Source: Salinicola corii (GTDB lineage Bacteria; Pseudomonadota; Gammaproteobacteria; Pseudomonadales; Halomonadaceae). Taken from it: a DNA stretch of 64,000 nt. How positions within the stretch are numbered: the first letter of the stretch is position 1; each line of letters begins with the position of its first letter. A program made the position numbers and the translations under genes. Below, in pieces: positions 1 through 14,593 of this stretch. Under the pieces are notes generated by a model. It saw only the letters and a program-made list of their open reading frames with translations, was not told the DNA's origin and ran no database searches. The DNA is taken from NCBI RefSeq assembly GCF_008298015.1, contig NZ_VTPX01000003.1:68290-132289 (forward strand). The letters are read 5' to 3'.

Positions 1-2
1 GC

Positions 3-1070
3 GTCAACTATCTACGTCCGGGACATACTATCGCCTCCGCCGATCCCGGCCGGGGCGATATCGATGATGCTTTGAGTCACGCCCTGAGCCAGGGCGCGAT
101 CGGGCTGAAACTGTTGGGTGGGCACTATCCATTGACGGCCGAAGCGACGGCTCAGGCCATCGCAGCGGCTGCGGGGCACGGTGCGTACGCGGCCTTTCAT
201 GCCGGCACGCAGTCGGTCGGCTCGAATATCGAGGGCACGCGGGAGGCGTGCGAACTGAGCGCCGGACATCCGCTTCACCTGGCGCATATCAACAGCTACT
301 GCCGCGGTCAGACCCATGATGCCGTGTCCGAGGGCGAGGAGGCGCTGGCGCTTCTGGCAGCGCATCCGCACATCCGCTCGGAGTCCTATCTGGCCCCCTT
401 CAATGGGGTCAGCGGCGAATGCATCGACGGCGTGCCGGGAAGCCGACTGGCGGCCTTCGGTCTCGAGCGCGGCGGGTATGCGGCCACCAGCGAGGGGATG
501 GCTGAGGCGATTCTGACCGGCTGGGCGCTGGTCAATCTGGAGCGCGACGGCATCATCGAACTGGTGGGCGGGTCAGAGGGGCTGGCCGCCTGGCACGCCT
601 GCGGGTCGCTCATCGGTATCAGTTTCCGCGCCAATCCTCCCGAGCCGCGCCTGCGTCTGGTGACGGCCACGCGGCTTGATGGCCGCTTCGCGGTGGATGC
701 CCTGGCAACCGACGGAGGCGGCATCCCGCGCAACGATATCGTGGCGCGCGGCCTCGCGCTGGTGCACCTCGATGCCTTGAGTCTCGAGGGCTTCGTACGC
801 AAGGCGAGTCTACATCCGGCGAGGATTCTCGGGTTGCGCGACAAGGGGCATCTGGGTGTTGGTGCCGATGCGGATATTACCGTGCTCGATCTCGAACGCC
901 GGCGTCCGGTTTTGACCTATGCCCATGGGCAACGACTGCTCGATGGCGAAGCTGTCGTCGGCCGCGGTGGCCGCTTGGTCACTACGCCGGCGGGCGAGAC
1001 TGCGGTGCGTGCTGCCGGGCTGGACGCCCTGGTCATCCAGCCGGGCAGCATGCTGAAAACCCCTCAATGA
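3..1070 (+). CDS. Amidohydrolase-superfamily metal-dependent hydrolase (5' partial)
   Basis: The frame is open from the left edge, so the N-terminal part, including the usual HxH metal motif, lies outside the window. What remains (about 355 codons) looks like a cyclic-amidohydrolase/deacylase TIM barrel: GLKLLGGH, a possible carboxylated-lysine strand; FHAGT; LHLAHINSY with two histidines; and TDGGGIPRND with the likely catalytic Asp. The C-terminal GADADITVLDLE strand is the usual small beta domain. It sits 37 bases before an N-acyl-D-amino-acid deacylase and a TRAP transporter, so hydrolysis of an acylated or cyclic D-amino-acid derivative is likely, but the substrate is inferred from context only. 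Confidence 0.75.
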   Translation, partial: VNYLRPGHTIASADPGRGDIDDALSHALSQGAIGLKLLGGHYPLTAEATAQAIAAAAGHGAYAAFHAGTQSVGSNIEGTREACELSAGHPLHLAHINSYCRGQTHDAVSEGEEALALLAAHPHIRSESYLAPFNGVSGECIDGVPGSRLAAFGLERGGYAATSEGMAEAILTGWALVNLERDGIIELVGGSEGLAAWHACGSLIGISFRANPPEPRLRLVTATRLDGRFAVDALATDGGGIPRNDIVARGLALVHLDALSLEGFVRKASLHPARILGLRDKGHLGVGADADITVLDLERRRPVLTYAHGQRLLDGEAVVGRGGRLVTTPAGETAVRAAGLDALVIQPGSMLKTPQ

Positions 1071-1107
1071 CAAGACGTTGGCCGTACCTCGCCATCAGGA
1101 GAGCAAC

Positions 1108-2547
1108 ATGACATTCGATGTGATCATTCGCCGTGCCCATGTCGTCGACGGTACCGGTCGTGAGTCATTCGTGGCCGATATCGGCGTGAAGGGAGAGCGA
1201 ATCGCGGCGATCGGTGATCTGGATGCGACTCATGCCGCGCAGGTGGTCGAAGCCCAAGGGCGGTATCTTTCCCCGGGATTCATCGACGTTCATACCCACG
1301 ACGATAGCTGCGCCATCCGCGAACCGGAGATGCTGCCCAAGATTACCCAGGGCGTGACCACGGTGATCGTCGGCAACTGCGGTATCAGCGCCTCTCCGGT
1401 AAAGATCGTTGGCGAGGTGCCGGATCCGATGAATCTGCTGGGAGAGCGCGACGCGTTCTTCTCGACGTTCGAGGCCTTCGCCGAGGCCGTCGAGACGGCG
1501 GCGCCGGCGGTGAACGTGGCCGCGTTGATCGGCCATACCACGCTGCGAGCCGGCGTGATGGACCGCTTCGACCGGGCCGCCAGCGACGAGGAAGTGCTGG
1601 CCATGCGCCAATCGCTGCGCACGGCGCTGCGTGCCGGTGCGATCGGCCTCAGTACCGGTCTGGCCTATACCAACGCGCGTCAGGCGCCGGCCGGTGAGGT
1701 GAAGGCGCTGGTCGAGGTAGTCGGCGAAGAGGGGGGGATCTACACCACCCATATGCGCAACGAGCGCGAGCGACTGTTCGAGGCGATGGATGAGGCCTTC
1801 GAGACAGCGCGTCACGGGCGCGTACCGCTGGTGATCTCGCATTTGAAATGCGCCGACGTCGAGAACTGGGGCAAGAGCGAACACGCCATCGAGAAGCTCG
1901 AGGCAGCGGCGGCCGAGCAGCCTTGCAACTGCGACTGTTATCCCTATTCGGCTTGCTCGACGACGCTGGATCTGTGGCGCGTCTCGGACGAGTTCGACAT
2001 CTTGATTACCTGGTCGAAGCCGCATCCCGATCAGGGGCGGCGCCTGCTGACCGAGATCGCCACGGAGTGGGGCGTAGATCTGACCGAAGCGGCAAGCCGT
2101 TTGATGCCGGCCGGGGCGATCTACCACAACATGGACGAGACGGATGTGCGTCGCGTTCTGGCGCATCCTCTGACCATGATCGGTTCCGATGGGCTTCCCA
2201 GCGACCCCAACCCGCATCCGCGGCTGTGGGGTAGTTTCCCCCGCGTCATCGGTCATTATTGCCGCGATGAAGGTCTGTTTGCCCTCCCGGAAGCGATTCG
2301 CAAGATGACGTCGATGTCGGCGGCGCGTTTCGGCTTGACCGATCGCGGCGTGATCCGCGAGGGGGCCTTCGCCGATCTGACCCTGTTCGACTTCGATAAC
2401 GTGAAAGATGGCGCGAGCTTCGTGGAGCCGACCATACCGGCAGTCGGCATCGATTGGGTGATGGTCAATGGGCGCCCGGCTTGGATCGATGGAAAGGTTC
2501 GCCATCGAGCAGGGCGTCTGCTTCGGCGTGAAGAGATAATCGAGTAG
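1108..2547 (+). CDS. N-acyl-D-amino-acid deacylase (D-aminoacylase family)
   Basis: A 479-residue zinc amidohydrolase predicted to split N-acyl-D-amino acids (for example N-acetyl-D-glutamate) into the free D-amino acid and the carboxylic acid in the cytoplasm. Visible marks of the family: the HTH metal pair at residues 62-64, the GNCG loop with its conserved Cys near 91, THMRNE and HLKCAD in the barrel, and GSDGLPSDPNPHPRLWG with the catalytic Asp. The ATG at 1108 is preferred over an upstream in-frame start because AGGAGAG lies 4 bases before it and the protein then begins MTFDVIIRRA, as in relatives. It forms an apparent operon with the preceding hydrolase. D-Glu preference is inferred from the DgcN/DgcA neighbours. 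Confidence 0.88.
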   Translation: MTFDVIIRRAHVVDGTGRESFVADIGVKGERIAAIGDLDATHAAQVVEAQGRYLSPGFIDVHTHDDSCAIREPEMLPKITQGVTTVIVGNCGISASPVKIVGEVPDPMNLLGERDAFFSTFEAFAEAVETAAPAVNVAALIGHTTLRAGVMDRFDRAASDEEVLAMRQSLRTALRAGAIGLSTGLAYTNARQAPAGEVKALVEVVGEEGGIYTTHMRNERERLFEAMDEAFETARHGRVPLVISHLKCADVENWGKSEHAIEKLEAAAAEQPCNCDCYPYSACSTTLDLWRVSDEFDILITWSKPHPDQGRRLLTEIATEWGVDLTEAASRLMPAGAIYHNMDETDVRRVLAHPLTMIGSDGLPSDPNPHPRLWGSFPRVIGHYCRDEGLFALPEAIRKMTSMSAARFGLTDRGVIREGAFADLTLFDFDNVKDGASFVEPTIPAVGIDWVMVNGRPAWIDGKVRHRAGRLLRREEIIE

Positions 2548-2678
2548 CTTGCCGTGGCTTAACACAAGGTTATGCCACGCTGACGAATAAAGCATAAGAC
2601 AGGCGTGTACTGTATCGCTGACTATTTTTGGACGCTCGGTGACGAGCTTGTGACTACAACGATAACGAGGTTTACCCC

Positions 2679-3764
2679 ATGCCCTTGATGAACCCGCAAT
2701 CCCGCCAGTGGCGTCAACTGATGTCTGCGGCCGCCGTGACTTTGGTTCTTGGAGCTGGCACGGCTGTGATGCCCGGTACCGCCGCCGCCGCGGAAACGCT
2801 GACTTATGCGACCAATACCGCACCGAATGGCCTGCGCGGCGCCGCCGAGAAAGGCTTTCTGGATGCCTTGAGTGAGGTTTCCAACGGCGAGATCGAAGTG
2901 GTGCCTTATTGGGGGGCGTCGGTCATGCAGGGCGATGAAATTCTCGGCGGTGTCAGCAACGGTGTCGCTGACATGGGCTATATCAACATCAATTACTATC
3001 CCAATCGGCTGTTGCTGAATGGGGCGTTCCAGCTGTTTCCCGCCGGCCCCGAGAACTACGCGGACATCATGTCGGTTTACCATGATGTCTATGATCAGGT
3101 ACCCGAGCTAAGCGAGGAATTCGCCAGGCAGGGCCAGCACATCATCTATATCTACCCCTATCTTCCCTATGCCGGTGTCTTTCGCGAACCCGTGACGTCG
3201 TTCGATGATTTCCAGGGCAAGCGGGTGCGCGCTTCCAGCCAGTGGATGCTCAATCTGCTGGGCGATCTGGGGGCAACGCCGGTATCGGTTCCCTGGAGCG
3301 ACACCTATCAGTCCTTGCAGTCAGGTGCCATCGACGGGGTCTTCACCAATTACGACAGCCTCAACCGCACAGGCATGGACGAGGTCGCGCCGAATGTCCT
3401 GACGTCACGCCGCTTGTGGTTGGCGGTCCCCATGATCCTTACCGTCAATCAGCGCAAGTGGGATGCGATGTCGGCAGAGATGCAGGACTGGTTCGAGCAA
3501 GCCGCGGCTCGGGCGGAGAAGACCTTTGGTGACTATTACGCCAATGAGTTCGATCGCATCGTCGAGGTACAGGAGGCTGCCGGCTATACGGTGACGGCCG
3601 CCTCTGCCGAGGATATCGAGAAATTCGTCTCGTTGCCGGCAGTGGAAAGCAATCGACAGACCTGGATCCAGAGTGCCGAGGATGCGGGTGCGGAGAATCC
3701 CGCGCAGATCATCGAAAAGATGAAAGCGATCATCGATAACGGTTCGTCGGTCAGCGGCTCATGA
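2679..3764 (+). CDS. dctP: TRAP transporter solute-binding protein (DctP family)
   Basis: A periplasmic solute receptor of 361 residues for a tripartite ATP-independent transporter. The N-terminus is a Sec signal peptide with a long hydrophobic stretch ending in AAAAE, the likely cleavage point. The mature protein shows the DctP fold signatures, including FQGKRVRASSQW, whose second Arg normally salt-bridges the substrate carboxylate, and the SGAIDGVFTNYDSL segment. GAGG precedes the ATG by 8 bases. The 131 bases before it hold no gene and probably carry the promoter of the transport and catabolic genes. The following dctQ start overlaps its stop. The ligand is probably an anionic N-acyl or D-amino acid, judged from the operon alone. 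Confidence 0.9.
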   Translation: MPLMNPQSRQWRQLMSAAAVTLVLGAGTAVMPGTAAAAETLTYATNTAPNGLRGAAEKGFLDALSEVSNGEIEVVPYWGASVMQGDEILGGVSNGVADMGYININYYPNRLLLNGAFQLFPAGPENYADIMSVYHDVYDQVPELSEEFARQGQHIIYIYPYLPYAGVFREPVTSFDDFQGKRVRASSQWMLNLLGDLGATPVSVPWSDTYQSLQSGAIDGVFTNYDSLNRTGMDEVAPNVLTSRRLWLAVPMILTVNQRKWDAMSAEMQDWFEQAAARAEKTFGDYYANEFDRIVEVQEAAGYTVTAASAEDIEKFVSLPAVESNRQTWIQSAEDAGAENPAQIIEKMKAIIDNGSSVSGS

Positions 3765-4321
3765 AGGGTAAGCCGAACAGTAATGCACAAACGCATCCCG
3801 GGACCCGGCAGCCCGGCGCGGGACCGGGCATTCACCAGGCGCGCAAACCGCGCCTGATGACCCGGCTCAATCAGAGCCTGGCCGAGTTGTGCGGGTGGCT
3901 ATTGATCGTGGTGGTGCTGTTCATGATCGTCGATCTGGTGGCTCGAGGCTTTTCGCGTCCTCTCTACGGCGTCTCGGAACTGGCCATGTTCACGATGATC
4001 GCGGTCGTATATCTCGGCCTGTCGCACGCGGAAGAACGGGACGCGCATATTCGCGTCGAATTCTTGACGGATAAGCTTGGCGGCCTCGCCGCACGCCTGC
4101 TGACGGGATTCATAACGCTGGTTTCGCTCGTGACGGTAATCATCGTGGCGTGGGCCGTGTGGACCAACGCGGTCAATGCCTGGGAGAGCCGCCAGGCGAT
4201 TGCCGGGCCCCGCCCGATCCTGGTTTATCCGGTCAAGTTCGTGATGTTCGCCGCGCTGGTGCTTTACGGGCTACAGCTGTGTCGCCGGCTGGTGGCCCAA
4301 TTCCGATTCAAGCGTCCGTGA
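3761..4321 (+). CDS. dctQ: TRAP transporter small permease (DctQ family)
   Basis: The four-helix small membrane subunit that links the solute receptor to the large permease. Hydrophobic segments cover about residues 43-63, 72-92, 112-135 and 155-172, and the family signature YGVSELAMFTM followed by HAEERDAHIRVE is present. Start and dctP stop overlap as ATGA, which suggests translational coupling. The first 32 residues are hydrophilic and proline-rich, unlike most relatives, so the second Met at 3857 is an alternative start; neither has a strong ribosome-binding site. Confidence 0.85.
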   Translation: MKGKPNSNAQTHPGTRQPGAGPGIHQARKPRLMTRLNQSLAELCGWLLIVVVLFMIVDLVARGFSRPLYGVSELAMFTMIAVVYLGLSHAEERDAHIRVEFLTDKLGGLAARLLTGFITLVSLVTVIIVAWAVWTNAVNAWESRQAIAGPRPILVYPVKFVMFAALVLYGLQLCRRLVAQFRFKRP

Positions 4322-4379
4322 AGACCGAGAAGCTTGCGCCTTTTGGGTTTCCGACGTTTCTACTACTACGGATATCATC

Positions 4380-5696
4380 ATGGACTTCACGCTAGTCGGC
4401 GTCGTCGGTGTCGCGGCATTACTGATACTTCTCGTGCTTGGCGTTCCCTTGGCCATCAATTTCCTGCTGGTCGCTTTCGTCGGAATCGCCACGCTTCTGA
4501 CCCCTTTCAGCGCCACTTCGCTACTGGGGGATACCATGTACACGGCGATCGCTTCGCCGACCTTCACGGTGCTGCCGTTATTTGTCTTGATGGGAGCGCT
4601 GGCGGCGGCCAGCGGCTTCGCCGAGCTGGCCTACAAGGGGTTGCATCGCGTGACCGCGCGGATTCCCGGCTCGCTGGCCGTCGCGACGGCTTTCGGCAGC
4701 GCGGCGTTCTCGACCGTCTGCGGTTCCTCTTTGGCTACCGCTAGCGTGTTCGGGCGTATTGCCTATCCGGAGATGCGTCGTTATCAGTATGACAAGCGCT
4801 TCGCACTGGGCAGTATCGCCTGTGCGGGCTCGTTCGCGGCGATGATTCCGCCCAGCGGCATGTTCATCCTGTTCTCCATCTTCACCGGCGTACCGGTAGG
4901 GCAGCTTTTCATCGCCGGCATCGTGCCGGGCGTACTGACGGCTGTCGTCTACGCGATCTCGATTGTCTGGCGCGCCAAGCGCAATCCGGCACTGGCGCCG
5001 ATGCTGGAGGAGGAGCACCGGATCATGCTGAGGGACCGTGTACGCGGTATTCTTGATCTGTGGCAGATCCTGCTGCTTGGCGGGGTCGTCATCGGGGGCC
5101 TTTACGGTGGGCTATTCACGGCGACCGAAGCCGGTGCGGTCGGGGCCCTGGGAGCGATCATTCTGGGCGTGGCGACCGGGCCCCTGCGCTCGCTCGACAA
5201 GCTGCGCGGGGCGCTGAGGGAGTCGGCAGGGATCACCACGACGCTATTTTTCATTATCGTCGCGGCGCTGTTCTTCAGTCGATTTCTGGGGTTGACCCGA
5301 ATCCCGTTCGAGATCACAAGCTTCATGACCTCCTGGGACGTGCCCTCATGGATGGTCCTAGGACTGATTCTGGTCATCTGGTTCCTGATGGGGATGGTCG
5401 TGGTGCCCGCAGCGGCATTCGCGTTGACGCTGCCGATCGTGTTCCCGATCGTGGTAGAGCTAGGTTACGAGCCTATCTGGTTCTGTATCATTGCCATGAA
5501 GATGTGCGAAATTGCAGGGGTAACGCCACCCGTGGGGCTCAACGCCTTTGCGCTGGCCGGGGCTGCTGGCAAGGAGGTCAAAATCAGTGAGGTCTTCGCG
5601 GGTGTCTGGCCTTTCGTGGCGTGCGATCTGATCATTCTTGCACTGCTGCTGGCGTTCCCCGCCATTTCGCTGTGGCTGCCGCAGAGTATGATGTAG
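4380..5696 (+). CDS. dctM: TRAP transporter large permease (DctM family)
   Basis: A 438-residue inner-membrane protein, the ion-coupled translocation subunit of the DctPQM transporter, with about twelve hydrophobic segments along its whole length. The conserved core is clear: FGSAAFSTVCGSSLATA, then FALGSIACAGSFAAMIPPSG, and a C-terminal EIAGVTPPVGLNAF. No convincing Shine-Dalgarno sequence precedes the ATG, although translation from dctQ ends only 58 bases upstream. Together with dctP and dctQ it should import the substrate of the enzymes flanking it, driven by the sodium gradient in a halophile (inference). Confidence 0.93.
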   Translation: MDFTLVGVVGVAALLILLVLGVPLAINFLLVAFVGIATLLTPFSATSLLGDTMYTAIASPTFTVLPLFVLMGALAAASGFAELAYKGLHRVTARIPGSLAVATAFGSAAFSTVCGSSLATASVFGRIAYPEMRRYQYDKRFALGSIACAGSFAAMIPPSGMFILFSIFTGVPVGQLFIAGIVPGVLTAVVYAISIVWRAKRNPALAPMLEEEHRIMLRDRVRGILDLWQILLLGGVVIGGLYGGLFTATEAGAVGALGAIILGVATGPLRSLDKLRGALRESAGITTTLFFIIVAALFFSRFLGLTRIPFEITSFMTSWDVPSWMVLGLILVIWFLMGMVVVPAAAFALTLPIVFPIVVELGYEPIWFCIIAMKMCEIAGVTPPVGLNAFALAGAAGKEVKISEVFAGVWPFVACDLIILALLLAFPAISLWLPQSMM

Positions 5697-5766
5697 CGGA
5701 GCGTGATGCCGTGTCGCCATGACGGAGAGGGCTCCGTCACTATCTATTCATCAGAGACAAGACAAT

Positions 5767-6768
5767 ATGCTCAAGACTCCCTATTTGCTGTTCCTGGGCG
5801 ACGTGCCCGACCCGCTGTCCGCCAAGGTCGCTCAGGGCATTCGCGACTGGCGCCCGGAGTATGCGTTAGGGCAGTACCGGTTACCCGGATGCCAGGCGGA
5901 TATGAAACTGCCGGATCTCGATATCGACGCGGCTGTGGCGCAAGGTGTCAGGACGCTGGTGATTGGCGCGGCCAATCGCGGTGGGGTGATCTCCCGCAGT
6001 TGGATCGCGGTGCTCAAGGAGGCACTGGCTGCCGGCATGGATATCGCTTCCGGCCTGCACAATCTGCTGCGTGACGAACCGGAGCTGGTCGAGGCGGCCG
6101 AAAGACATGGCGGGCGCTTGATCGATGTGCGCGTCCCCCAGGTCCAGTATCCGATCGGCGACGGCAAGAAGCGCCATGGCAAGCGCTGTCTGGCTGTGGG
6201 TACCGATTGCTCCATCGGCAAGATGTACACCGCACTGGCGCTGGATATCGCCCTGCGCGAGCGCGGCGCCAACTCGAGCTTCCGCGCCACCGGCCAGACC
6301 GGCATCCTGATCACCGGCGAGGGCGTGCCACTGGATGCCGTCATCGCCGATTTCATGGCGGGTTCGATCGAGTGGCTGACGCCGGACAACGACGACGACC
6401 ATTGGGACATCATCGAAGGGCAGGGCAGTCTTTTCCACCCTTCCTATTCCGGGGTCACCATGGCATTGATTCACGGCGGACAGCCGGATGCGCTGATTCT
6501 GTGTCATGAACCGACGCGCACGCACATGCGCGGGTTGCCGCATTACCAATTGCCGACGCTCGAACAGCTGCGCGATACGGCGCTGCCGCTGGCACAGGTG
6601 GTGAATCCCGGATGCCAGGTCGTCGGTGTTTCGGTGAATACCTCCGGCATGGCGATCGACGAGGCCGATCGCTATCTGGCGGCACTGGAAACGCGCATGG
6701 GGTTGCCCTGCGTCGACCCCTACCGCCAGGGCGCGGATCGGCTGGCGGAGGCGGTGTTGGCATGCTGA
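5767..6768 (+). CDS. dgcN: N-acetyltransferase DgcN of D-glutamate catabolism (DUF1611 family)
   Basis: A 333-residue member of the DUF1611 family, in which DgcN was described in marine proteobacteria as the enzyme that acetylates D-glutamate before DgcA racemises the product. A P-loop-like stretch VGTDCSIGKMYTALAL lies mid-protein; RATGQTGILITGEG, EGQGSLFHPSYSGVT and CHEPTRTHMRG are further family blocks. I place the start at the ATG of MLKTPYLLFLG; an in-frame ATG at 5719 would add 16 residues with no better binding site. The gene overlaps dgcA by 7 bases, which fits coupled expression. The assignment rests on family resemblance and on the dgcA partner. Confidence 0.85.
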   Translation: MLKTPYLLFLGDVPDPLSAKVAQGIRDWRPEYALGQYRLPGCQADMKLPDLDIDAAVAQGVRTLVIGAANRGGVISRSWIAVLKEALAAGMDIASGLHNLLRDEPELVEAAERHGGRLIDVRVPQVQYPIGDGKKRHGKRCLAVGTDCSIGKMYTALALDIALRERGANSSFRATGQTGILITGEGVPLDAVIADFMAGSIEWLTPDNDDDHWDIIEGQGSLFHPSYSGVTMALIHGGQPDALILCHEPTRTHMRGLPHYQLPTLEQLRDTALPLAQVVNPGCQVVGVSVNTSGMAIDEADRYLAALETRMGLPCVDPYRQGADRLAEAVLAC

Positions 6769-7742
6769 CACTGAGCGTCGAGGAGCAGGTCTTTCCGCTC
6801 GCCGAAGTCTTTACCATCTCGCGTGGCTCGCGTACCGATGCGCGAGTCGTGGTGGCGACATTGAGCGATGGTGTTCACACCGGACGGGGCGAGTGCGTAC
6901 CTTATGCGCACTACGGCGAGTCGGTCGACAGCGTGATTGCCCAGATCGAGTCGATGCGTGAGGCCCTGGCAGAAGACATGGATCGCCTCGCGCTGCAGTC
7001 GCGACTGCCGGCCGGTGCCGCTCGCAATGCGCTCGACTGTGCGTTCTGGGATCTGGAAGCCAAGCGCAGCGGGTGTCCGGTCTGGCAACTCGCCGGGCTG
7101 TCAGCGCCGGTGGCCGAGATCACGGCCTTCACATTGTCCCTGGATACGCCCGATGCCATGCGCGAGAAGGCCAGGCTCCACGCCGCCCGACCGCTACTCA
7201 AGTTGAAGTTGGGCGGAGAGGGCGACATCGAACGCCTGCGAGCGGTGCGCGAAGGCGCCCCCGAAGCACGGATCATCGTTGACGCGAACGAAGGTTGGGA
7301 CCGTGACACCTACGCACGTCTGGCGCCGGTGCTGTTGGAGCTGGGCATCGGCATGGTCGAGCAGCCGCTACCGGTTGGGAACGATGCGCCGCTGGCGGAG
7401 ATCGAACGGCCGCTACCGGTCTGCGCCGACGAGGCGTGTCATGATCGCACGTCGCTACCCGATCTGGTCGGCCGCTACGACATGATCAATATCAAGCTCG
7501 ACAAGACCGGTGGTTTGACCGAAGCTCTGGCGCTCAAGCGCGAGGCGCTGGCGCAGGGGTTCGAAGTGATGGTGGGCTGCATGGTGGGATCGTCGCTGTC
7601 GATGGCGCCGGCACTGTTGGTGGCCCAGGGGGCGGCCGTGGTCGATCTCGATGGGCCGCTGTTGCTGGCCCGGGATCGCGAGCATGGCATGCGCTTCGAC
7701 GCCGAGGGTATCCATCCGGCTTCACCACGCCTGTGGGGTTGA
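6762..7742 (+). CDS. dgcA: N-acetyl-D-glutamate racemase DgcA (enolase superfamily)
   Basis: A 326-residue enolase-superfamily racemase/dipeptide-epimerase relative. Catalytic landmarks are in the right order: the KLKLGG lysine pair near residue 150, DANEGWD and ADEACH supplying Mg2+ ligands, and NIKLDKTGG with the second catalytic lysine. In the DgcN-DgcA pathway it converts N-acetyl-D-glutamate to N-acetyl-L-glutamate. Its ATG lies inside the end of dgcN. Without that partner it would be called a generic L-Ala-D/L-Glu epimerase, and this remains the main alternative: such enzymes handle murein peptides and also contain D-Glu. Confidence 0.85.
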   Translation: MLTLSVEEQVFPLAEVFTISRGSRTDARVVVATLSDGVHTGRGECVPYAHYGESVDSVIAQIESMREALAEDMDRLALQSRLPAGAARNALDCAFWDLEAKRSGCPVWQLAGLSAPVAEITAFTLSLDTPDAMREKARLHAARPLLKLKLGGEGDIERLRAVREGAPEARIIVDANEGWDRDTYARLAPVLLELGIGMVEQPLPVGNDAPLAEIERPLPVCADEACHDRTSLPDLVGRYDMINIKLDKTGGLTEALALKREALAQGFEVMVGCMVGSSLSMAPALLVAQGAAVVDLDGPLLLARDREHGMRFDAEGIHPASPRLWG

Positions 7743-7776
7743 CGAGCCACGTCGCGCAAGAATCGAGACAAGAGAA

Positions 7777-8649
7777 ATGGATGAAATGACTCAGCGCACG
7801 GTGTACGTGAATGGGGAGTATGTCGCGGAGCGGGACGCCAGAGTATCGATCTTCGACCGGGGATTCCTGCTCGCCGATGGTGTCTACGAGGTTTCGTCGG
7901 TGCTGGAGGGCAAGCTGATCGACTTTCCCGGCCACATGGGGCGTCTGAAACGCTCGGCCGCGGAGCTCGAGATGGCGCTCCCGTGGGATGAAAAGGCGCT
8001 GCTGACGATCCATCGCGAGTTGATCCGGCGCAACGCGCTCGCGGAGGGCATGGTCTATCTACAGCTGACGCGGGGCAGTGCCGGTGATCGCGATTTCGGT
8101 TATCCCGATACCGATACACCGCCTACGCTGGTGCTGTTCACCCAGGCCAAGTCGCTCGTCGATAGCCGCAGTGGCAGCGAAGGCATTCGTGTCGTGACGC
8201 AACCCGACTGGCGCTGGGCGCGGCGTGACATCAAGACGGTGCAGCTGCTCTATCCCGCCATGGCAAAGATGGCGGCGAAAGCGGCCGGCGCCGACGACGC
8301 CTGGATGGTCGAGGACGGCATGGTGACCGAAGGGGCGTCGAACAATGCCTGGATGCTGACGCACGATGGAACGCTGGTGACGCGCGAGCTCTCCCACGCC
8401 ATTCTGCCGGGCATTACCCGAGCCGTCGTTCTGGAGATCGCCGAGGCGCTGTCGTTGCGGGTCGAGGAGCGGGCGTTCAGTGTCGAGGAAGCGCAAAGCG
8501 CCAAGGAGTGCTTCGTGACGTCGGCGTCCTCGTTCGTGACGCCGGTCATCGCGATCGACGACGTCTCGATCGGCGACGGATGCCCCGGCGAGGTGGCCCG
8601 GCGCTTGCGAGCGGCCTATATCGAGGAGAGTCGTCGACGCGCAATTTGA
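7777..8649 (+). CDS. dat: D-amino-acid transaminase (PLP fold type IV)
   Basis: A 290-residue fold-type IV aminotransferase that would exchange amino groups between D-amino acids (D-Ala, D-Glu) and 2-oxo acids. Family features: FDRGFLLADGVYEV near the N-terminus, the PLP-binding lysine in RRDIKTVQLL, EDGMVTEGASNNAW which contacts the cofactor phosphate, and FVTSASSFVTPV. Weak purine-rich sequence precedes both ATG 7777 and ATG 7786, so the protein may begin three residues later. It is the last gene of the D-amino-acid island and is followed by a hairpin terminator. It gives D-Glu a second fate beside the DgcN-DgcA route. Confidence 0.88.
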   Translation: MDEMTQRTVYVNGEYVAERDARVSIFDRGFLLADGVYEVSSVLEGKLIDFPGHMGRLKRSAAELEMALPWDEKALLTIHRELIRRNALAEGMVYLQLTRGSAGDRDFGYPDTDTPPTLVLFTQAKSLVDSRSGSEGIRVVTQPDWRWARRDIKTVQLLYPAMAKMAAKAAGADDAWMVEDGMVTEGASNNAWMLTHDGTLVTRELSHAILPGITRAVVLEIAEALSLRVEERAFSVEEAQSAKECFVTSASSFVTPVIAIDDVSIGDGCPGEVARRLRAAYIEESRRRAI

Positions 8650-8706
8650 GCCACCGTCGCGGCCGACTTGAACGAGTCAGCCGATCATTATGGAGCCGAA
8701 AACGAC

Positions 8707-8739
8707 AAAGCCCGCCGATCATGAGAGCGGCGGGCTTTT
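8707..8739. terminator. Bidirectional intrinsic terminator
   Basis: An 11-base perfect stem AAAGCCCGCCG / CGGCGGGCTTT encloses a 10-base loop and ends in TTTT on the + strand. It separates the converging dat gene and tRNA-Met and can serve both, since on the - strand it is followed by TTTGTCGTTTT. Confidence 0.8.
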
Positions 8740-8748
8740 CGCGATATC

Positions 8749-8825
8749 TGGTGGCTACGCCCTGATTCGAACAGGGGACCCCATCATTATGAGTGATGTG
8801 CTCTAACCAGCTGAGCTACGTAGCC
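8749..8825 (-). tRNA. tRNA-Met (elongator, CAT anticodon)
   Basis: A 77-base gene with the CCA end encoded. The cloverleaf folds cleanly: acceptor GGCTACG/CGTAGCC, D arm AGCTCAGCTGGTTAGAGC, anticodon loop CTCATAA, T loop TTCGAAT. The acceptor starts with a normal G-C pair, which marks elongator rather than initiator tRNA. It has its own promoter upstream and the hairpin at 8707-8739 downstream. Confidence 0.97.
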
Positions 8826-8929: not shown

Positions 8930-10021
8930 CTAGACGTTGAAACGGAAGTGCATCACGTCACCGTCCTGGACGACGTAGGCCTTGCCTTCGAGACGCCACT
9001 TGCCGGCTTCCTTGGCGCCGTTCTCGCCGCCCAGCGCCACGAAATCTTCATAACTGACCACTTCGGCGCGGATGAAACCCTTCTCGAAGTCGGTATGGAT
9101 GACGCCGGCCGCCTGCGGTGCGGTGGCGCCGATCTTGACCGTCCACGCCCGGACCTCCTTCACGCCCGCGGTGAAGTAGGTCTGCAGGCCCAGCAGGCCA
9201 TAGCCGGCACGAATGACGCGGTCGAGCCCGGGCTCCTCCATGCCCATCTCTTCGAGGAACATGGCGCGCTCCTCGTCCTCGAGTTCGGCAATCTCCGCTT
9301 CCAGCTTGTTGCAGACTGGCACGACGACGGCATTTTCCTGGGCCGCGATCTCGCGCACGATATCGAGATGCGGGTTGTTCTCGAAGCCGTCTTCGTTGAC
9401 GTTGGCGATGTACATCGTCGGCTTGAGCGTCAGGAAGCCGAAGCTGCGTAACTGGTGCTGTTCGTCGGCGTCTAGGCCGAAACTGCGCAGGGGCTGGCCT
9501 TCGGCCAGATGTGGCTGAATTCGATCCAGAAGCGCCTTGGTGGCGATCGCCTCCTTGTCGCCACCCTTGACCACGCGCGTCAGACGCTGGATCGAGCGTT
9601 CGACGGCATCGAGATCGGCCAGCGCGAGCTCGAGGTTGATGGTTTCGATATCGGCGGTGGGGTCGACCTGGTTGGCGACATGGATGACATTGTCATCCTC
9701 GAAGCAGCGCACCACATGGGCAATAGCATCTGTCTCGCGGATGTTGGCCAGGAACTGGTTGCCCAGACCCTCGCCCTTGGAGGCGCCCTCGACCAGGCCC
9801 GCGATGTCGACGAACTCCATCGTGGTCGGCACCACTTTTTCCGGCTTGACGATCTCGGCCAGCTTGTCGAGACGCGGGTCGGGCATCGGCACGATACCGG
9901 TGTTGGGTTCGATGGTGCAGAAGGGGAAGTTCTCGGCATCGATGCCGGAGCGCGTCAATGCATTGAAGAGAGTCGACTTGCCGACGTTGGGTAGGCCGAC
10001 GATGCCGCAATTGAAACCCAT
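8930..10021 (-). CDS. ychF: Redox-regulated ATPase/GTP-binding protein YchF
   Basis: An Obg-family P-loop NTPase of 363 residues that associates with ribosomes and, unlike most Obg proteins, prefers ATP. The G1 motif GLPNVGKST begins at residue 8, the switch/G3 motif [17 protein letters not shown] follows, a coiled-coil insert lies in the middle, and the C-terminal TGS domain ends in [11 protein letters not shown]. The start is the ATG of [10 protein letters not shown]; upstream extension is not conserved. It lies downstream of pth, as in most gammaproteobacteria, with tRNA-Met behind it on the same strand. Confidence 0.96.
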
Positions 10022-10169
10022 GGCTTGGTCCTGAAGGAATGTGAATCTGAACAAGGCTATGCCGGAGACTCGCTTTCGAGGGCGAAAGGGCAATCGTGAA
10101 TGGCGGGCATTCTACGGGAGACGGGCTGTTCCGGCCACACTCTTGGCCTCGCTTCGAGCGTCGAGCGAA

Positions 10170-10754
10170 TTAGGCGGGCTTGAAACTGTGCAGACGATTC
10201 ATGGCCTTGGCCCAGTCGCCGGATAGCGCATCGGGGAGGGTGGCGATGATCTCGCCGATGGCATCATCGATGGCCTGACGCTCGGCTTTGCTGGGTCGAC
10301 CGAGGACATAGTTGGTGACGAGCTTGGCACTGCCCGGATGGCCGATGCCGATACGTAGGCGGTGAAAGCCGTTGCTACCCAGCGCGCTGGTGATGTCGCG
10401 CAGGCCGTTGTGTCCGCCGTGTCCGCCGCCCGTCTTGTAGCGGGCGCAGCCGGGGGCGATATCGAGTTCGTCGTGAGCGACGAGAAGCTCGTCCGGGGCG
10501 ATCTTGAAGAACTGGCACAGCGCGGCCACGGAGGCGCCGCTGCGATTCATGAAAGTAGTCGGGTTGAGCAGATGGAGGTCCTGCCCGTCCAAACGGATCC
10601 TGGCGTGAAGACCCAGGAACTTGCGTTCGGGACGCAGCGTTTCCGCTGCATCCCGGACGAGTTGCTCGACCAGCCAGGCGCCGGCATTGTGGCGGGTGTC
10701 TTCGTACTCCGTTCCCGGGTTGCCGAGACCGATGATCGCTTTCACTGCGCCCAT
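10170..10754 (-). CDS. pth: Peptidyl-tRNA hydrolase
   Basis: A cytoplasmic esterase of 194 residues that frees tRNA from peptidyl-tRNA dropped by ribosomes. It carries the GLGNPGTEYEDTRHNAG signature with the catalytic His, NPTTFMNRSG, the HDELD aspartate and GHNGLRDI. The second possible start, GTG at 10745, would give the shorter MKAIIGLG beginning seen in some relatives. It is transcribed from the rplY side towards ychF. Confidence 0.96.
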   Translation of the reverse strand: MGAVKAIIGLGNPGTEYEDTRHNAGAWLVEQLVRDAAETLRPERKFLGLHARIRLDGQDLHLLNPTTFMNRSGASVAALCQFFKIAPDELLVAHDELDIAPGCARYKTGGGHGGHNGLRDITSALGSNGFHRLRIGIGHPGSAKLVTNYVLGRPSKAERQAIDDAIGEIIATLPDALSGDWAKAMNRLHSFKPA

Positions 10755-10787
10755 GTCGCCTGCCTGTCCTGATCGCTAAGAGCTGGC

Positions 10788-11444
10788 TTACTCTTCGCCT
10801 TTCTCTTCTTTCGGCTCGCCATCTTCGTCGACGCCTTCACCGGCGACTTCGTCGTCACTGGCGACAGTCGGGTGGGTCACGCTGACGACACCGGCGTCGT
10901 GCTCTTCGCCATGGCTCAGTTCGACCAGTGTCACGCCTTCCGGAAGCTTGATGTCGGAGAGGTGGATAGTCTCGCCCAGGCCCAGATCGGCGACGTCGAC
11001 TTCGAGGTATTCCGGCAGCTTGGACGGCAGACAGCTGATCTGAACGTCGTTGTTCAGGACGTGGAGAACGCCACCTTCGTCCTTGACGCCCTTGCACGAC
11101 TCTTCGTTCACGAAGTGCAGCGGGACGTTCATCGTCAGCTCGTGAGTCGCATCGACACGCATGAAGTCGGCATGAGTGACCAGCGCCTTGTACGGATGAC
11201 GCTGAAGATCACGGATGATGACCTGTTCGCTCTTGCCGTCGACGTTGATATCGATGACCGAGGAGAAGAACGCCTCGTCTTCGATTGCCTTGTAGAAGGC
11301 GGGCTTGTCGATGGTGATCGGCTGCGGTGCCGTGGTGCCACCGTAGATGATGGCGGCGACCTGTTCGTTCTTGCGGCGCAGGCGGCGGCTCGCACCTTTC
11401 CCCAGCTCCTTACGAACGTTGGCGGTCAGTGTGTAATGGGACAT
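10788..11444 (-). CDS. rplY: 50S ribosomal protein L25, long Ctc/TL5 form
   Basis: A 5S-rRNA-binding ribosomal protein of 218 residues. The N-terminal 90 residues match the L25 core ([15 protein letters not shown], then [12 protein letters not shown]), and a C-terminal Ctc beta domain continues to VSHGEEH-like sequence before an acidic tail rich in Asp, Glu and Gly. AGAGGTGA precedes the ATG. The long form, not the about 95-residue enterobacterial form, is normal in pseudomonads and halomonads. It lies between prs and pth in the conserved order. Confidence 0.95.
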
Positions 11445-11592
11445 TGATTGTCACCTCTAGTGGTCAAGTAAAGGAATCGGCACCGCCCGCGACCAGACGA
11501 TGCCGTTCCAGCAGGGACCACCGCCATCACGGCAGTGGCCCACGTATCCGCGCGTGCTTCGCTTGTCGCCCCCGCCCGTTTCCGGGGAGGGA

Positions 11593-12534
11593 TCAGTGAA
11601 ACATCGCGCTGACGGATTCTTCGTTACTGACACGCCGGATGGCTTCGGCAATCAGGCCGGCGACCGTCAATTGACGGATTTTGCCGCTGCGACGTGCAGG
11701 TTCGGAGAGCGGTATGGTATCGGCAACGACGAGTTCGTCAAGCACTGAACCAGTAATATTGTCCACGGCGGGCCCGGAAAGGATTGGGTGCGTGGCGTAA
11801 GCGACCACACGATGGGCGCCGTGAGCCTTCAAGGCCTCTGCGGCCTTGCAGAGCGTGCCGGCGGTATCGACCATGTCGTCGACCACCACGCAGGTGCGGT
11901 CCTGGATGTCGCCGATGATGTGCATCACCTGGGCCTGGTTGGCTTGCGGGCGGCGCTTGTCGATGATCGCCAGGTCGACATTGAGTTGCTTGGCGATGGC
12001 GCGGGCACGCACGACCCCGCCCACGTCGGGAGAGACCACCACCAGATCGTCGTAGTTCTGGCGCTCGATGTCATCGAGCAGGATCGGCGAGCCGTAGACG
12101 TTGTCCACCGGGACATCGAAGAAGCCCTGGATCTGGTCGGCGTGCAGGTCCATGGTCATGACGCGGTCGACGCCGGCCTTGACCATCATGTCCGCCACGA
12201 CCTTGGCCGAGATCGGCACGCGGGCGGAGCGCACGCGACGGTCCTGACGGGCGTAGCCGAAGTAGGGCACGACCGCGGTGATCCGCGTTGCCGAAGCGCG
12301 GCGCAGCGCATCGACCATCAGGATCAGTTCCATCAGATTGTCGTTGGTCGGTGCGCAGGTCGACTGGAGAATAAAGACGTCTTTACCGCGCACGTTCTCG
12401 TTGATCTCGACGGCGATTTCTCCATCGCTGAACTGCCCGACCGTGGCATGGCCGAGTCGGTTATCCAGACTCTCGGCTACCTTTGAGGCGAGTCCGACAT
12501 TGGCGTTACCGGTAAAAACCATCAATTTAGACAC
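11593..12534 (-). CDS. prs: Ribose-phosphate pyrophosphokinase
   Basis: Makes PRPP from ribose-5-phosphate and ATP for nucleotide, His, Trp and NAD synthesis. The 313-residue protein has the full family pattern: [16 protein letters not shown], the flexible-loop [18 protein letters not shown], and the PRPP-binding [12 protein letters not shown]. The start codon is GTG, with AAAGGTGG about 8 bases upstream. Its neighbour upstream on the same strand is tRNA-Gln with ispE beyond, an arrangement common to gammaproteobacteria. Confidence 0.96.
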
Positions 12535-12797
12535 GCGCGGCCACCTTTGGGAGCTGTTGAAGGTCAGTAGGGGACATTCGGTTCAAGCCAGGACGGGTGA
12601 CAAGACTGCCGGGAGAGTACGGGACGAGGGGCGGGTTTTCCGAGACACCATGCTTACCCGACCGCGATGCGGGTTGGCATCGAGGTCGCGCGTCGAAACG
12701 GCAGGAAAAAAAACCGCAACGTCGGTGGGGAAATCGTGTGGGCTGAGCGGCCATCGCGTCCCGGTTTCCGTTTGCAGGCTTGTCGAAATTCAGGAAG
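12535..12797. other. Gene-free spacer between prs and tRNA-Gln
   Basis: No credible reading frame. On the - strand a run of eight T (complement of 12716-12723) follows a short GC-rich imperfect hairpin and may end the tRNA-Gln transcript; the remainder should contain the prs leader and promoter. Confidence 0.4.
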
Positions 12798-12872
12798 TGG
12801 CTGGGGTACCAGGATTCGAACCTGGGAATGCTGGTACCAGAAACCAGTGCCTTACCACTTGGCGATACCCCA
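12798..12872 (-). tRNA. tRNA-Gln (CTG anticodon)
   Basis: A 75-base cloverleaf with encoded CCA. The acceptor is TGGGGTA/TACCCCA with a G discriminator; the anticodon arm CTGGT-TTCTGGT-ACCAG gives CTG, and the T arm is CCAGG-TTCGAAT-CCTGG. The weak first U-A acceptor pair is a normal identity element of glutaminyl tRNA. It lies between ispE and prs on the same strand. Confidence 0.95.
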
Positions 12873-13013
12873 GCAATCATCGGTCGCGCTCATTATGCGC
12901 AAAAGCGCAAACCGTTGGCTAGGTTTGAGGGCAAAACCAGTCGTGAAGTCGTCATCCGCCTGAAAAGACTGATGAAAACTGCGCAAGTAAGCCGGCTTTC
13001 CAGGTCGGCGACA

Positions 13014-13898
13014 TCACGCTTGGGACTGACCCAAACCTTCGGCAAGGTTCAAAGCCTGGTGCAGCGGAGACAAGTTGCAACCGCGAGCCTTGAAGGCTTG
13101 CCATTCGTCCGGGACCTGCCGCAGCACCTGATCGGCCTGCGTTTCGTCGTCCAGCGGACAAAAGACGCAGGCGCCAGTCCCCGTCAGTATCGCGGGGCCA
13201 TACTGGCCAAGCCAGTTCAGCGCGCGATCGACCTCGGGATGAAGCGCTCGCACGATGCTCTCGCAGTCGTTGCGCCACACCACTTCGGGGGCAGCCCCGT
13301 CGAGTGCGCGACGCATACTAATGACCGTGCTATCGCGTGTCAAACCGGGGTGGCTGAAAATCGCCGCCGTGGCGATCTCCACGCCAGGATGGACGATGAC
13401 GAGCCAGGCAGGCTCGAGATCCACGGCGGTCAAGCGTTCACCGACGCCCTCCGCCCAGGCGGTGCGGCCCCGCACGAATACCGGGACATCGGCGCCCAGT
13501 TCCAGCCCTAGCGTCGCCAGTCGCTCGAGTCCGAGCCCGAGACCCCAGAGACGATCAAGCGCCAGCAGCGTGGTGGCGGCGTTGGAGCTGCCCCCACCCA
13601 GTCCGCCGCCCATCGGCAGGCGCTTCTCCAGCGTGATGGTCGCGCCCTGTCGGCAGCCAGTCTCGCGCTGAAGCCGGCGGGCGGCACGAACGATCAGGTT
13701 GTCCGCTTCGGTGACGCCGACGAGCGCCGGCGACAAGGTGATATCGCTCCCCCGGGGCTGCGTTTCGAACCGCAGCGTGTCGCCGCGGTCCAGGATCTGG
13801 AACAGCGTCTGCAACGAGTGATAGCCGTCCTCGCGACGCCCGGTGATCCGCAGCAGCCGATTGAGCTTGGCCGGCGCGGGCAGCGTCAGCGACCTCAT
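13014..13898 (-). CDS. ispE: 4-diphosphocytidyl-2-C-methyl-D-erythritol kinase
   Basis: A GHMP-family kinase of 294 residues that phosphorylates CDP-methylerythritol in the non-mevalonate isoprenoid pathway. Seen: LPAPAKLNRLLRITGRREDGYH at the start with the substrate-binding lysine, the ATP-binding loop PMGGGLGGGSSNAA, and LTGTGACVF near the C-terminus. The ATG at 13898 overlaps the lolB stop as ATGA, and this fixes the start over an in-frame codon 19 residues upstream. The lolB-ispE pair is conserved in gammaproteobacteria. Confidence 0.95.
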   Translation of the reverse strand: MRSLTLPAPAKLNRLLRITGRREDGYHSLQTLFQILDRGDTLRFETQPRGSDITLSPALVGVTEADNLIVRAARRLQRETGCRQGATITLEKRLPMGGGLGGGSSNAATTLLALDRLWGLGLGLERLATLGLELGADVPVFVRGRTAWAEGVGERLTAVDLEPAWLVIVHPGVEIATAAIFSHPGLTRDSTVISMRRALDGAAPEVVWRNDCESIVRALHPEVDRALNWLGQYGPAILTGTGACVFCPLDDETQADQVLRQVPDEWQAFKARGCNLSPLHQALNLAEGLGQSQA

Positions 13899-14593
13899 GG
13901 CGACGCGTCCGCCGCCTGCCCGGGTGCTCCTTCGCTCCCGCTCCCCGGTTGCCACTGGTTGACCACCAGCGTGGCGCGGATGTCGTCATACGTCATGATC
14001 AGGCGGCTCGGCAGCCACAGCGAATCGGCGTAGGTCCAGTCCCGGTAGCGAATGGTCCAGCCGTCCTGGCTCAGGGTCTTGGGGAAGCCGAGTTCATCAT
14101 CGCTCTGCCGATGGGCCCGGCCCGGTGCGGGGAGTCCGCGCACCCAGTAGTCCAGGGCCGATATCGGCAGCGACCAACCCAACTGTTGCTGCATCAGCGC
14201 TTCCGGCGACGACGCCTCGAAGCGACCGTCGCCGGTGGTCAGGGTGACGGCACCCTGGCGGCCTTCGAGGACGCTGCGTCCGGCACCGAAGGGGCCGCTG
14301 ATCAGCATGCGGTAGTGATCGGGTGCCTGGGACCAGTCCAGGTTGGCGCTGCGGCTCTCTTCCGCGGTGCGCAGCCCGACCTTGCCGGCCACCGTCCAGG
14401 TATCCAGCGCTGCCAGGTCCTGCTGCTGCCGCTGCCAGTCGTCGGGCTGTCGCGGCACGTCCGGGGCCGGCGCCTGTCCGGCGCAGCCGGCCAGCCAGAC
14501 CAGCAGGAGCAGTGCACCCAGCGGCTGCCACCGTTTTTGAAACGGGGACGACAGGTAGCGAGGCCGATCGTTGGCGAGAAGGCTTGGAGACAT
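13895..14593 (-). CDS. lolB: Outer-membrane lipoprotein receptor LolB
   Basis: Accepts lipoproteins from LolA and inserts them in the outer membrane; itself a lipoprotein. The 232-residue product has a signal peptide with the lipobox LAGC (Cys at about residue 37), an unusually long positively charged lead of some 20 residues before the hydrophobic core, and the LolB-type core W-TVAGKVGLRT, NLDWSQAPDHYRMLISGPFGAG and LDYWVRGLPAPG. AGGAA lies just before the ATG. It sits between a TPR lipoprotein and ispE, exactly as in Pseudomonas. Confidence 0.93.
   Translation of the reverse strand: MSPSLLANDRPRYLSSPFQKRWQPLGALLLLVWLAGCAGQAPAPDVPRQPDDWQRQQQDLAALDTWTVAGKVGLRTAEESRSANLDWSQAPDHYRMLISGPFGAGRSVLEGRQGAVTLTTGDGRFEASSPEALMQQQLGWSLPISALDYWVRGLPAPGRAHRQSDDELGFPKTLSQDGWTIRYRDWTYADSLWLPSRLIMTYDDIRATLVVNQWQPGSGSEGAPGQAADASP

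Follow-up and report, generated by a model that had tools for sequence, protein, structure and literature searches.

A candidate LysR-governed island for D-amino-acid derivatives at the D-glutamate converter of Salinicola corii

The DNA considered here is a window of 64,000 nucleotides from the 4.66-Mb genome of Salinicola corii (contig NZ_VTPX01000003.1, positions 68,290 to 132,289; G000:C24:68290-132289 in our labels). It opens on a row of genes that ends with DgcN, DgcA and a D-amino-acid transaminase, and this raises the question of whether D-glutamate (D-Glu) is the food for which the row exists or a compound made inside the cell on the way to something else. The answer that we favour, with moderate confidence, is that the genes of this salt-loving bacterium belong to an island with three modules, controlled by LysR, in which D-amino-acid derivatives are broken down and their nitrogen is passed by way of D-Glu to L-glutamate (L-Glu). 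Judged from the gene families, the use of D-amino-acid derivatives by the island is likely, and D-Glu may arise by transamination as a hub inside the cell instead of being imported as a nutrient. The case is built on what is observed: gene content, synteny, sites, residues and distribution.

Module A holds a hydantoin-racemase homologue, a LysR regulator, a D-hydantoinase, an amino-acid ABC importer and an N-carbamoyl-D-amino-acid hydrolase (DCase). The hydantoinase would open hydantoins and DCase would remove the carbamoyl group to leave D-amino acids. Module B would contribute the amidohydrolase that we call amido1, a deacylase to free D-amino acids from their N-acylated forms, and a TRAP importer that takes up one of the compounds the island uses. 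In module C, the D-amino-acid transaminase would pass the amino group to 2-oxoglutarate, and the resulting D-Glu would be acetylated by DgcN and inverted by DgcA to N-acetyl-L-Glu, from which a housekeeping enzyme (ArgJ or like) would release L-Glu. LysR would bind TTAAC-N5-GTTA sites upstream of itself and the racemase homologue, of the hydantoinase operon and of dctP. Operon structure, LysR binding, all the substrates and the direction of flux are what we infer from these sequences.

The initial annotation had described a self-contained island within the window. Its eight co-directional genes on the plus strand (window 3-8649) are where it placed them, with overlaps or short gaps (-4 to 131 bp) and a terminator at the end, but the island is not self-contained. 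On the same contig it begins about 8.2 kb upstream of the window with the hydantoinase / N-carbamoyl module, so that the total is about double the cluster first described. From hydantoinase to transaminase, all the genes share a strand and are spaced by -23 to 178 bp. The features are as follows, with coordinates in the upstream stretch L002 (G000:C24:58290-77290), which also labels the S. corii locus, or in the window (window position = L002 position - 10000); the other L numbers are comparison loci and the G numbers genomes.

L002 300-1646, plus strand: M18 aminopeptidase (PF02127)
L002 1792-2451, minus strand: hydantoin-racemase homologue (PF01177)
L002 2619-3518, plus strand: LysR regulator
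L002 3765-5294, plus strand: D-hydantoinase (TIGR02033, PRK13404)
L002 5272-6072, plus strand: ATPase of the amino-acid ABC importer
L002 6251-7126, plus strand: ABC binding protein
L002 7232-7915 and 7917-8582, plus strand: ABC permeases
L002 8673-9599, plus strand: DCase
L002 9661-11070, plus strand: amido1, amidohydrolase; window 3-1070 is its 3' part, the gene start lying about 340 bp before the window
Window 1108-2547 (L002 11108-12547), plus strand: D-aminoacylase-like deacylase, with the Thr/Arg pair reported for N-acetyl-D-glutamate deacylase
Window 2559-2572, plus strand: TTAACACAAGGTTA, fourth copy of the candidate LysR operator, 106 bp upstream of dctP
Window 2679-3764 (L002 12679-13764), plus strand: DctP, TRAP solute-binding protein
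Window 3761-4321 (L002 13761-14321), plus strand: DctQ, TRAP small permease
Window 4380-5696 (L002 14380-15696), plus strand: DctM, TRAP large permease
Window 5720-5739, plus strand: weak hairpin resembling a terminator, in the dctM-dgcN gap
Window 5767-6768 (L002 15767-16768), plus strand: DgcN, D-glutamate N-acetyltransferase (NCBIfam DgcN)
Window 6765-7742 (L002 16765-17742), plus strand: DgcA, N-acetyl-D-glutamate racemase
Window 7777-8649 (L002 17777-18649), plus strand: class IV transaminase, D-amino-acid transaminase subfamily (NF005209)
Window 8703-8741, no strand assigned: terminator hairpin closing the island

A candidate link between the modules is a palindrome, TTAACANNAKGTTA, that occurs exactly four times in the whole genome, always in the island (reversed control, 1; expected number in L002, 0.01). 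Two copies lie between the racemase homologue and lysR (L002 2534 and 2580), one upstream of the hydantoinase (3562) and one upstream of dctP (12559). LysR-type sites are palindromic T-N11-A sequences before the controlled genes, and the TTAAC-N5-GTTA sites of the island agree with that type. We refer to dgcN-dgcA-transaminase as the core and to the rest of the island as cargo. When ten loci with cargo and ten with a bare core were turned to the direction of dgcN and scanned on one strand with TTAACANNNNGTTA, allowing at most one mismatch, 23 matches appeared in the cargo loci (four of them the S. corii sites) and none in the bare ones. By coordinates, 22 of the 23 lie in promoter regions (lysR, DCase, hydantoinase or dctP), where some of them reach the end of the gene in front; the remaining one, at oriented position 1275 of L013, does not. 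All nine fetched loci with dctP beside dgcN have a candidate site upstream of dctP. Since there is a site in that position and none near the core in cargo-free relatives, the core would come under the same switch when cargo is present. A matrix built from the four S. corii sites only gave a best match above the null maximum (17.2, from 20 Markov draws of 19.9 kb) in 12 of 14 cargo stretches and in none of the 10 bare ones (highest, 16.1), and sites before DCase and lysR on a Pantoea plasmid score 23.1 and 22.6. L038, a cargo locus away from DgcN, has a candidate site upstream of DCase, and the stretch L143, which carries the TRAP genes of the same genome, showed no palindrome of this kind.

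DgcN and DgcA are identified by curated models. A D-glutamate catabolic pathway of these two enzymes was reportedly described by Yu et al. in 2023 (ISME J, doi 10.1038/s41396-023-01364-6). In S. corii, DgcN scores 546.4 bits against the NCBIfam DgcN model (cut-off 480) and 530 bits against PDB 7xrj. DgcA scores 509.6 bits against its own NCBIfam model (cut-off 400) and falls under the L-Ala-D/L-Glu epimerase model (334.9, cut-off 343); its nearest PDB entry is 4gfi, followed by the E. coli dipeptide epimerase. The transaminase is above the subfamily cut-off of NF005209 (391.5 bits against 320) and below that of the stricter equivalog TIGR01121. The locus resembles the known pathway in having both Dgc enzymes above curated cut-offs, with adjacent genes that overlap by 4 bp; the difference is the addition of the transaminase, of 14 kb of hydantoin / N-carbamoyl / N-acyl cargo, and of a LysR that belongs to that cargo. 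A dedicated regulator adjacent to dgcN is a feature of the pathway; the S. corii locus has none beside dgcN, its nearest LysR being 12 kb upstream in the cargo; loci with DgcN of a more distant type (47-51% identity) have an adjacent LysR-like gene in 12 of 12 cases. An ArgJ family member is present in the genome (G000:C11, 473 bits). PMC12363236 cites the 2023 paper, and PMC10845958 names the pathway. A Rhodobacteraceae strain with genes for the transaminase, DgcN and DgcA grows on D-Phe, D-Lys, D-Glu, D-Ser and D-Ala, according to PMC11747546. By eye, the S. corii transaminase keeps the R of the RxH carboxylate-trap motif described for Bacillus DAAT (PMC10671532), but the H is replaced by F; the range of amino acids that it accepts may therefore be different.

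The distribution of the core and of the cargo indicates which of the two is older. DgcN was searched for in 275 genomes of the family and found in 32, of which 20 have it at no less than 77% identity; dgcN, dgcA and transaminase are together in all 20 of these loci, and all three are present in 71 of the best 80 named DgcN stretches, mainly from Rhodobacterales. Because the transaminase is within the conserved core, DgcN-DgcA, which has been studied as a marine route for D-Glu, may be an outlet for the nitrogen of D-amino acids in general. Cargo is at 10 of the 20 core loci, the other 10 being bare. The initial annotation had read the genes as a pathway unit, against which their being unlinked from dgcNA in relatives would count. 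The conserved trio bears out the unit, as do the neighbouring families, which handle acylated D-derivatives, but the cargo is exchangeable: the deacylase is not beside the core in 10 of the 20 loci, TRAP is not in 11, and three genomes have cargo elsewhere, so that in relatives the genes are in part unlinked.

The cargo comes in several types. The S. corii locus has all the modules, and seven loci have LysR, DCase, amido1, deacylase and TRAP. L017 has only the racemase homologue, LysR, hydantoinase, ABC importer, DCase and deacylase, the deacylase frame ending 11 bp upstream of dgcN. In Vreelandella olivaria (L020) there are hydantoinase, ABC importer, DCase, deacylase and TRAP and no amido1, and the extended stretch L052 adds LysR and the racemase homologue about 11 kb further. 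Among the best 80 named DgcN loci, 11 of which come from this family, only L057, L059, L060 and L062 (three Salinicola and V. olivaria) have both DCase and deacylase within the stretch. Of 14 Salinicola loci, 13 have the M18 aminopeptidase upstream (the L012 stretch shows none); it is about 86-244 bp from dgcN in five bare loci, and cargo intervenes in eight. We conclude from these comparisons that the trio is an old core, in Salinicola normally placed just after M18, and that the remainder is exchangeable cargo inserted between the two.

In the core tree, cargo-bearing and bare species interleave (L017 with L018; L015, L016 and L014; L002, L007, L008, L010, L009 and L011). V. olivaria is nested within Salinicola, where it joins L007, L008 and L010 (support 0.97), which suggests transfer of a whole island. 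The S. corii LysR groups with those of L017 and V. olivaria (support 1.00), and its DCase and deacylase group with the L007 type at weak support (0.41); with its parts grouping differently, the island looks composite. The G+C content fits this loosely, being lower in the hydantoinase-ABC part (0.56-0.60 at L002 3001-9000) than in the DNA before it (0.62-0.63); it is 0.63-0.67 at 9001-12000 and 0.59 at 12001-14000. The S. corii M18 gene (L002 300-1646) is 95-97% identical to those of L014-L016, while YchF (window 8930-10093), DgcN and DctM are nearest to L007-L010 or L009, and this difference in affinity suggests recombination at or in the island. A further step, which we propose tentatively, is that D-Glu is an internal collector and not food, with the core as a docking site at which salt-loving bacteria swap front-end cassettes that bring their LysR operators with them and so capture the core.

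The upstream module has the character of a hydantoin utilisation cluster. The hydantoinase exceeds the cut-offs of TIGR02033 (538 bits against 393) and PRK13404, holds the H-C-H, K, H, H and D motifs, and is nearest in the PDB to the D-hydantoinase 1nfg (375 bits, the L-selective enzyme reaching 192). For DCase, the 11 best PDB sequences are all D-carbamoylases (335-409 bits), and the next family is at 81 bits. The racemase homologue scores 185 bits against PF01177 but only 66 bits against its best solved relative. In each of the six loci with it (L002, L017, L020, L039, L040 and L139), the ABC importer accompanies the hydantoinase. The D-hydantoinase, DCase, racemase homologue and ABC importer are as in known clusters, and a similar set is on a Thioclava plasmid; the difference is that here they are joined to a deacylase, a TRAP importer, a D-Glu to L-Glu converter and a common candidate operator.

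The deacylase is the component on which a narrower, glutamate-specific reading could be built. Its best PDB matches are 9g5m (594 bits), OngB (533), D-aminoacylase (448) and N-acyl-D-glutamate deacylase (405); it approaches one NCBIfam subfamily (166 bits) and is below the cut-off of 340. Positions were counted in OngB numbering on the PDB alignment for 14 cargo-type deacylases. Of the conserved substrate and catalytic residues of the D-aminoacylase, N-acyl-D-glutamate deacylase and OngB group, those examined (Y194, K254, Y285, S291, D368 and R379) are shared. According to PMC12017989, Ser292 with Gln298 marks GlcNAc1A deacetylases, and Thr with Arg at those positions marks the N-acetyl-D-glutamate enzyme. 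All 14 cargo deacylases have Thr292 and Arg298 (R291 in the S. corii protein's own numbering), like the N-acetyl-D-glutamate enzyme, but they differ from it in being small at position 193 (Ala in 14 of 14) and mostly so at 256 (Ala in 12, Met in 2); the bulky hydrophobic residues at 193 and 256 that characterise the BbDam-type N-acyl-D-glutamate deacylase are not present. Assignment as an OngB GlcNAc1A deacetylase was rejected: overall, the protein is most similar to that side (9g5m, PpOngB), yet it lacks Ser292 and Gln298. Assignment as a standard BbDam-type enzyme was held back on positions 193 and 256. A preference for acidic side chains is thus no more than a prediction, and the protein is not filed as an N-acyl-D-glutamate deacylase.

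On the narrower reading, the cargo would yield D-Glu itself, from hydantoin-5-propionate, N-carbamoyl-D-Glu, N-acyl-D-Glu or related rings. We regard this as unlikely, and put no higher the corollary that the transaminase merely balances D-Glu with D-Ala. The invariant Thr292 and Arg298 speak for it. So do ring-opening genes near the cargo, namely HyuA/HyuB in L012 and L038, and LamB_YcsF with CT_A_B in L039 and with CT_C_D and CT_A_B in L052 (Pfam names), which we take to be 5-oxoprolinase-type genes. Such genes and HyuAB are common, so their nearness proves little. Moreover, positions 193 and 256 are unlike those of the N-acetyl-D-Glu enzyme, and the hydantoinase is far under the cut-offs of the hydantoin-5-propionate amidohydrolase models (236.5 bits against 650; 180.3 against 600). 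Finally, a cytosolic N-acetyl-D-Glu deacylase would run against DgcN and reverse its step, and for this reason the general funnel for D-amino-acid nitrogen is ranked above the version confined to glutamate.

The general funnel also has to be held against the view that hydantoin, TRAP-amido1 and D-Glu cassettes merely share a permissive site upstream of dgcN, by chance or as selfish operons, and have no common flux. The modules certainly occur apart. Cargo stands without DgcN nearby in L039 and L040 (G117, G118) and in L038 (G119); cargo and DgcN are about 2.4 Mb apart by coordinates in the single-contig genome G118, and on different contigs in G117 and G119. At L012:12698-16575 and L038:5031-8790, HyuA/HyuB genes (Pfam Hydantoinase_A/B) lie divergent from LysR together with a TRAP system and may be a replacement front end. 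A Thioclava plasmid has TRAP, amido1 (52%), LysR, racemase, hydantoinase (50%), DCase (63%) and ABC genes (55-66%) together. On a Sulfitobacter plasmid, DCase, racemases, a hydantoinase and another TRAP system are 18 kb from an amido1-TRAP pair, and the hydantoinase is accompanied by that TRAP instead of the ABC importer. The Pantoea plasmid has a row of LysR (57%), DCase (79%), transaminase (51%), ABC genes and deacylase (60%), DgcN being absent from that stretch. The patchy and exchangeable cargo, the ten bare core loci, the three genomes that keep cargo away from DgcN, the amido1 and TRAP genes without D-Glu genes nearby on Rhodobacterales plasmids, and the solitary TRAP genes with a DCase fragment in G119 (see below) would all suit chance clustering.

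We nevertheless think it quite improbable. The candidate operator lies upstream of dctP in nine of nine loci and also upstream of the DCase or hydantoinase half; the L017 deacylase frame ends just before dgcN; and island and core occur together in V. olivaria with the core nested in Salinicola. There is also co-occurrence. DCase is found at E 1e-60 or better in 24 family genomes; the 13 with identity of 81% or more all have DgcN, and the 11 at 51-57% all lack it, though the 13 come from four genera and are phylogenetically dependent, so that the independent evidence is small and in one direction. In three of the 13 (G117-G119), DgcN is of the 47-49% type and elsewhere in the genome.

Amido1 is the sole component outside known families, a rare and uncharacterised amidohydrolase. 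With at most four candidates scored per genome, it was found in 1 of 369 genomes sampled across the class and 1 of 398 across the phylum, both times in S. corii itself; seven relatives in the genus also have it, making eight Salinicola loci in all. Plasmids gave 45 records, five of them covering at least 80% of amido1, in Rhodobacterales; in all four of these loci that were read, it adjoins a TRAP system, of several kinds, and the fifth (H4) has a TRAP permease under the match. The best PDB relative scores 54 bits, none being close. The initial annotation had called both amidohydrolases N-acyl-D-amino-acid deacylases; the second is D-aminoacylase-like, but for amido1 the assignment was set aside. 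Its invariant residues include H65, H67, K150, H180, H206, H209 and D351, and in profile comparison the HxH, the Lys and the next His align with hydantoinase metal ligands, the Lys lying between HxH and the later His as in hydantoinases. The profile evidence is mixed (177 columns at 98.5% probability with hydantoinase, 402 columns at 97.2% with deacylase). Structure models of amido1 and DctP from seven-row alignments were poor (mean pLDDT 41.3 and 42.0). At L010:9122-10533, amido1 is split into two overlapping tblastn pieces, so the gene may carry a frameshift in that genome.

All three TRAP subunits are above their Pfam cut-offs and so resemble known DctPQM transporters, differing in that no solved protein is close to DctP (best, 81 bits). 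The plasmid TRAP loci had been found through amido1, and DctP was therefore used as a separate query. It is in 10 of the 275 family genomes, beside dgcN in nine and beside amido1 in eight, the two without amido1 being V. olivaria and G119. The idea that the importer belongs to amido1 rather than dgcN did not survive this search. Five plasmid records matched DctP, and the only one above 31% is Sulfitobacter W027, whose TRAP (52, 49 and 67% identity to DctP, DctQ and DctM) is directly upstream of amido1, with no DgcN in the stretch; the TRAP systems of Thioclava, Salipiger and Antarctobacter are of other kinds (DctM 27-29%, or TAXI type). The claim that the importer is dedicated to D-Glu is thus favoured by its place beside dgcN and disfavoured by its place beside amido1 and by the plasmid homologue; it would import one of the island's substrates, and its partner may be either dgcN or amido1. 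At L143:9785-12930 (G119:C19), near a contig end, DctPQM homologues (68, 77 and 89%) are followed by a 48-residue DCase fragment; amido1 and DgcN are both missing, the distance to a transaminase homologue (58%) is about 7 kb, and the stretch looks like the remnant of a broken-up island. That TRAP imports free or acylated D-Glu or D-amino acids and that DgcN-DgcA is the purpose of the island, as first read, is very improbable, since its one support, TRAP genes directly upstream of dgcN in nine loci (9 of the 10 family genomes with this DctP), is offset by the Sulfitobacter DctP relative (about 51-52%) adjoining amido1 away from any DgcN in its stretch, by ten bare-core loci and L017 with DgcN and no TRAP, and by the TRAP genes of G119 standing apart from DgcN.

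Several results weigh against the funnel and its common switch, in addition to the dependence among genomes already mentioned. The motif was drawn by eye from the four S. corii sites and so defined post hoc, being tested in other loci afterwards. With the looser TTAACN5GTTA there are 11 matches in the genome against 7 in the control; five of these fall inside the island, among them one that is simply the site at L002 3562 read in reverse. The best matrix matches of L012 and L039 are within the null range, as are the sites upstream of dctP in L008, L012, L013 and L020 and upstream of DCase in L007, L012 and L015, though rightly placed. The core is incomplete in 9 of the 80 named stretches (L066, L078, L087, L097, L098, L102, L114, L125 and L126), which are without DgcA or transaminase, some being short contigs. 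The transaminase is below the stricter equivalog TIGR01121 (227.8 bits, cut-off 277), and similarity of the racemase homologue to solved hydantoin racemases is weak (best, 66 bits). A cytosolic deacylase acting on N-acetyl-D-Glu would undo the work of DgcN in a futile cycle, so the true substrate may differ.

Two hairpins complete the map. The one that ends the island (window 8695-8750) folds at -25.5 kcal/mol with a z of -4.7, and 0 of 200 shuffles was as good; it is also just beyond the end of a tRNA-Met on the opposite strand. The weaker hairpin at 5720-5739, which has similar sequence upstream of dgcN in L007, L008, L010 and L020 and not in L012, L013, L015 and L016, could attenuate expression of the core. 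Scans with consensus promoters and terminators gave matches no more frequent than in shuffles and were unused except in pointing to this hairpin.

All the component families but amido1 are known; what is new is their joining under one candidate operator and the history of the docking site. The combination, the operator and the docking-site arrangement were not found described in the literature searched, as judged mostly from listings. To our knowledge, the natural job of D-hydantoinases and D-carbamoylases, which are industrial workhorses, is poorly understood. If D-Glu is indeed a collector with a docking site at its core, this pair would have a natural role: sharing its candidate operators with a converter of D-Glu to L-Glu, it would have a concrete physiological one. 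The amido1 family, which often adjoins TRAP importers, would then represent a new front end whose substrate is possibly cyclic. The patchy cargo of close Salinicola species would then be a natural experiment on how catabolic islands capture an existing pathway together with its regulation.

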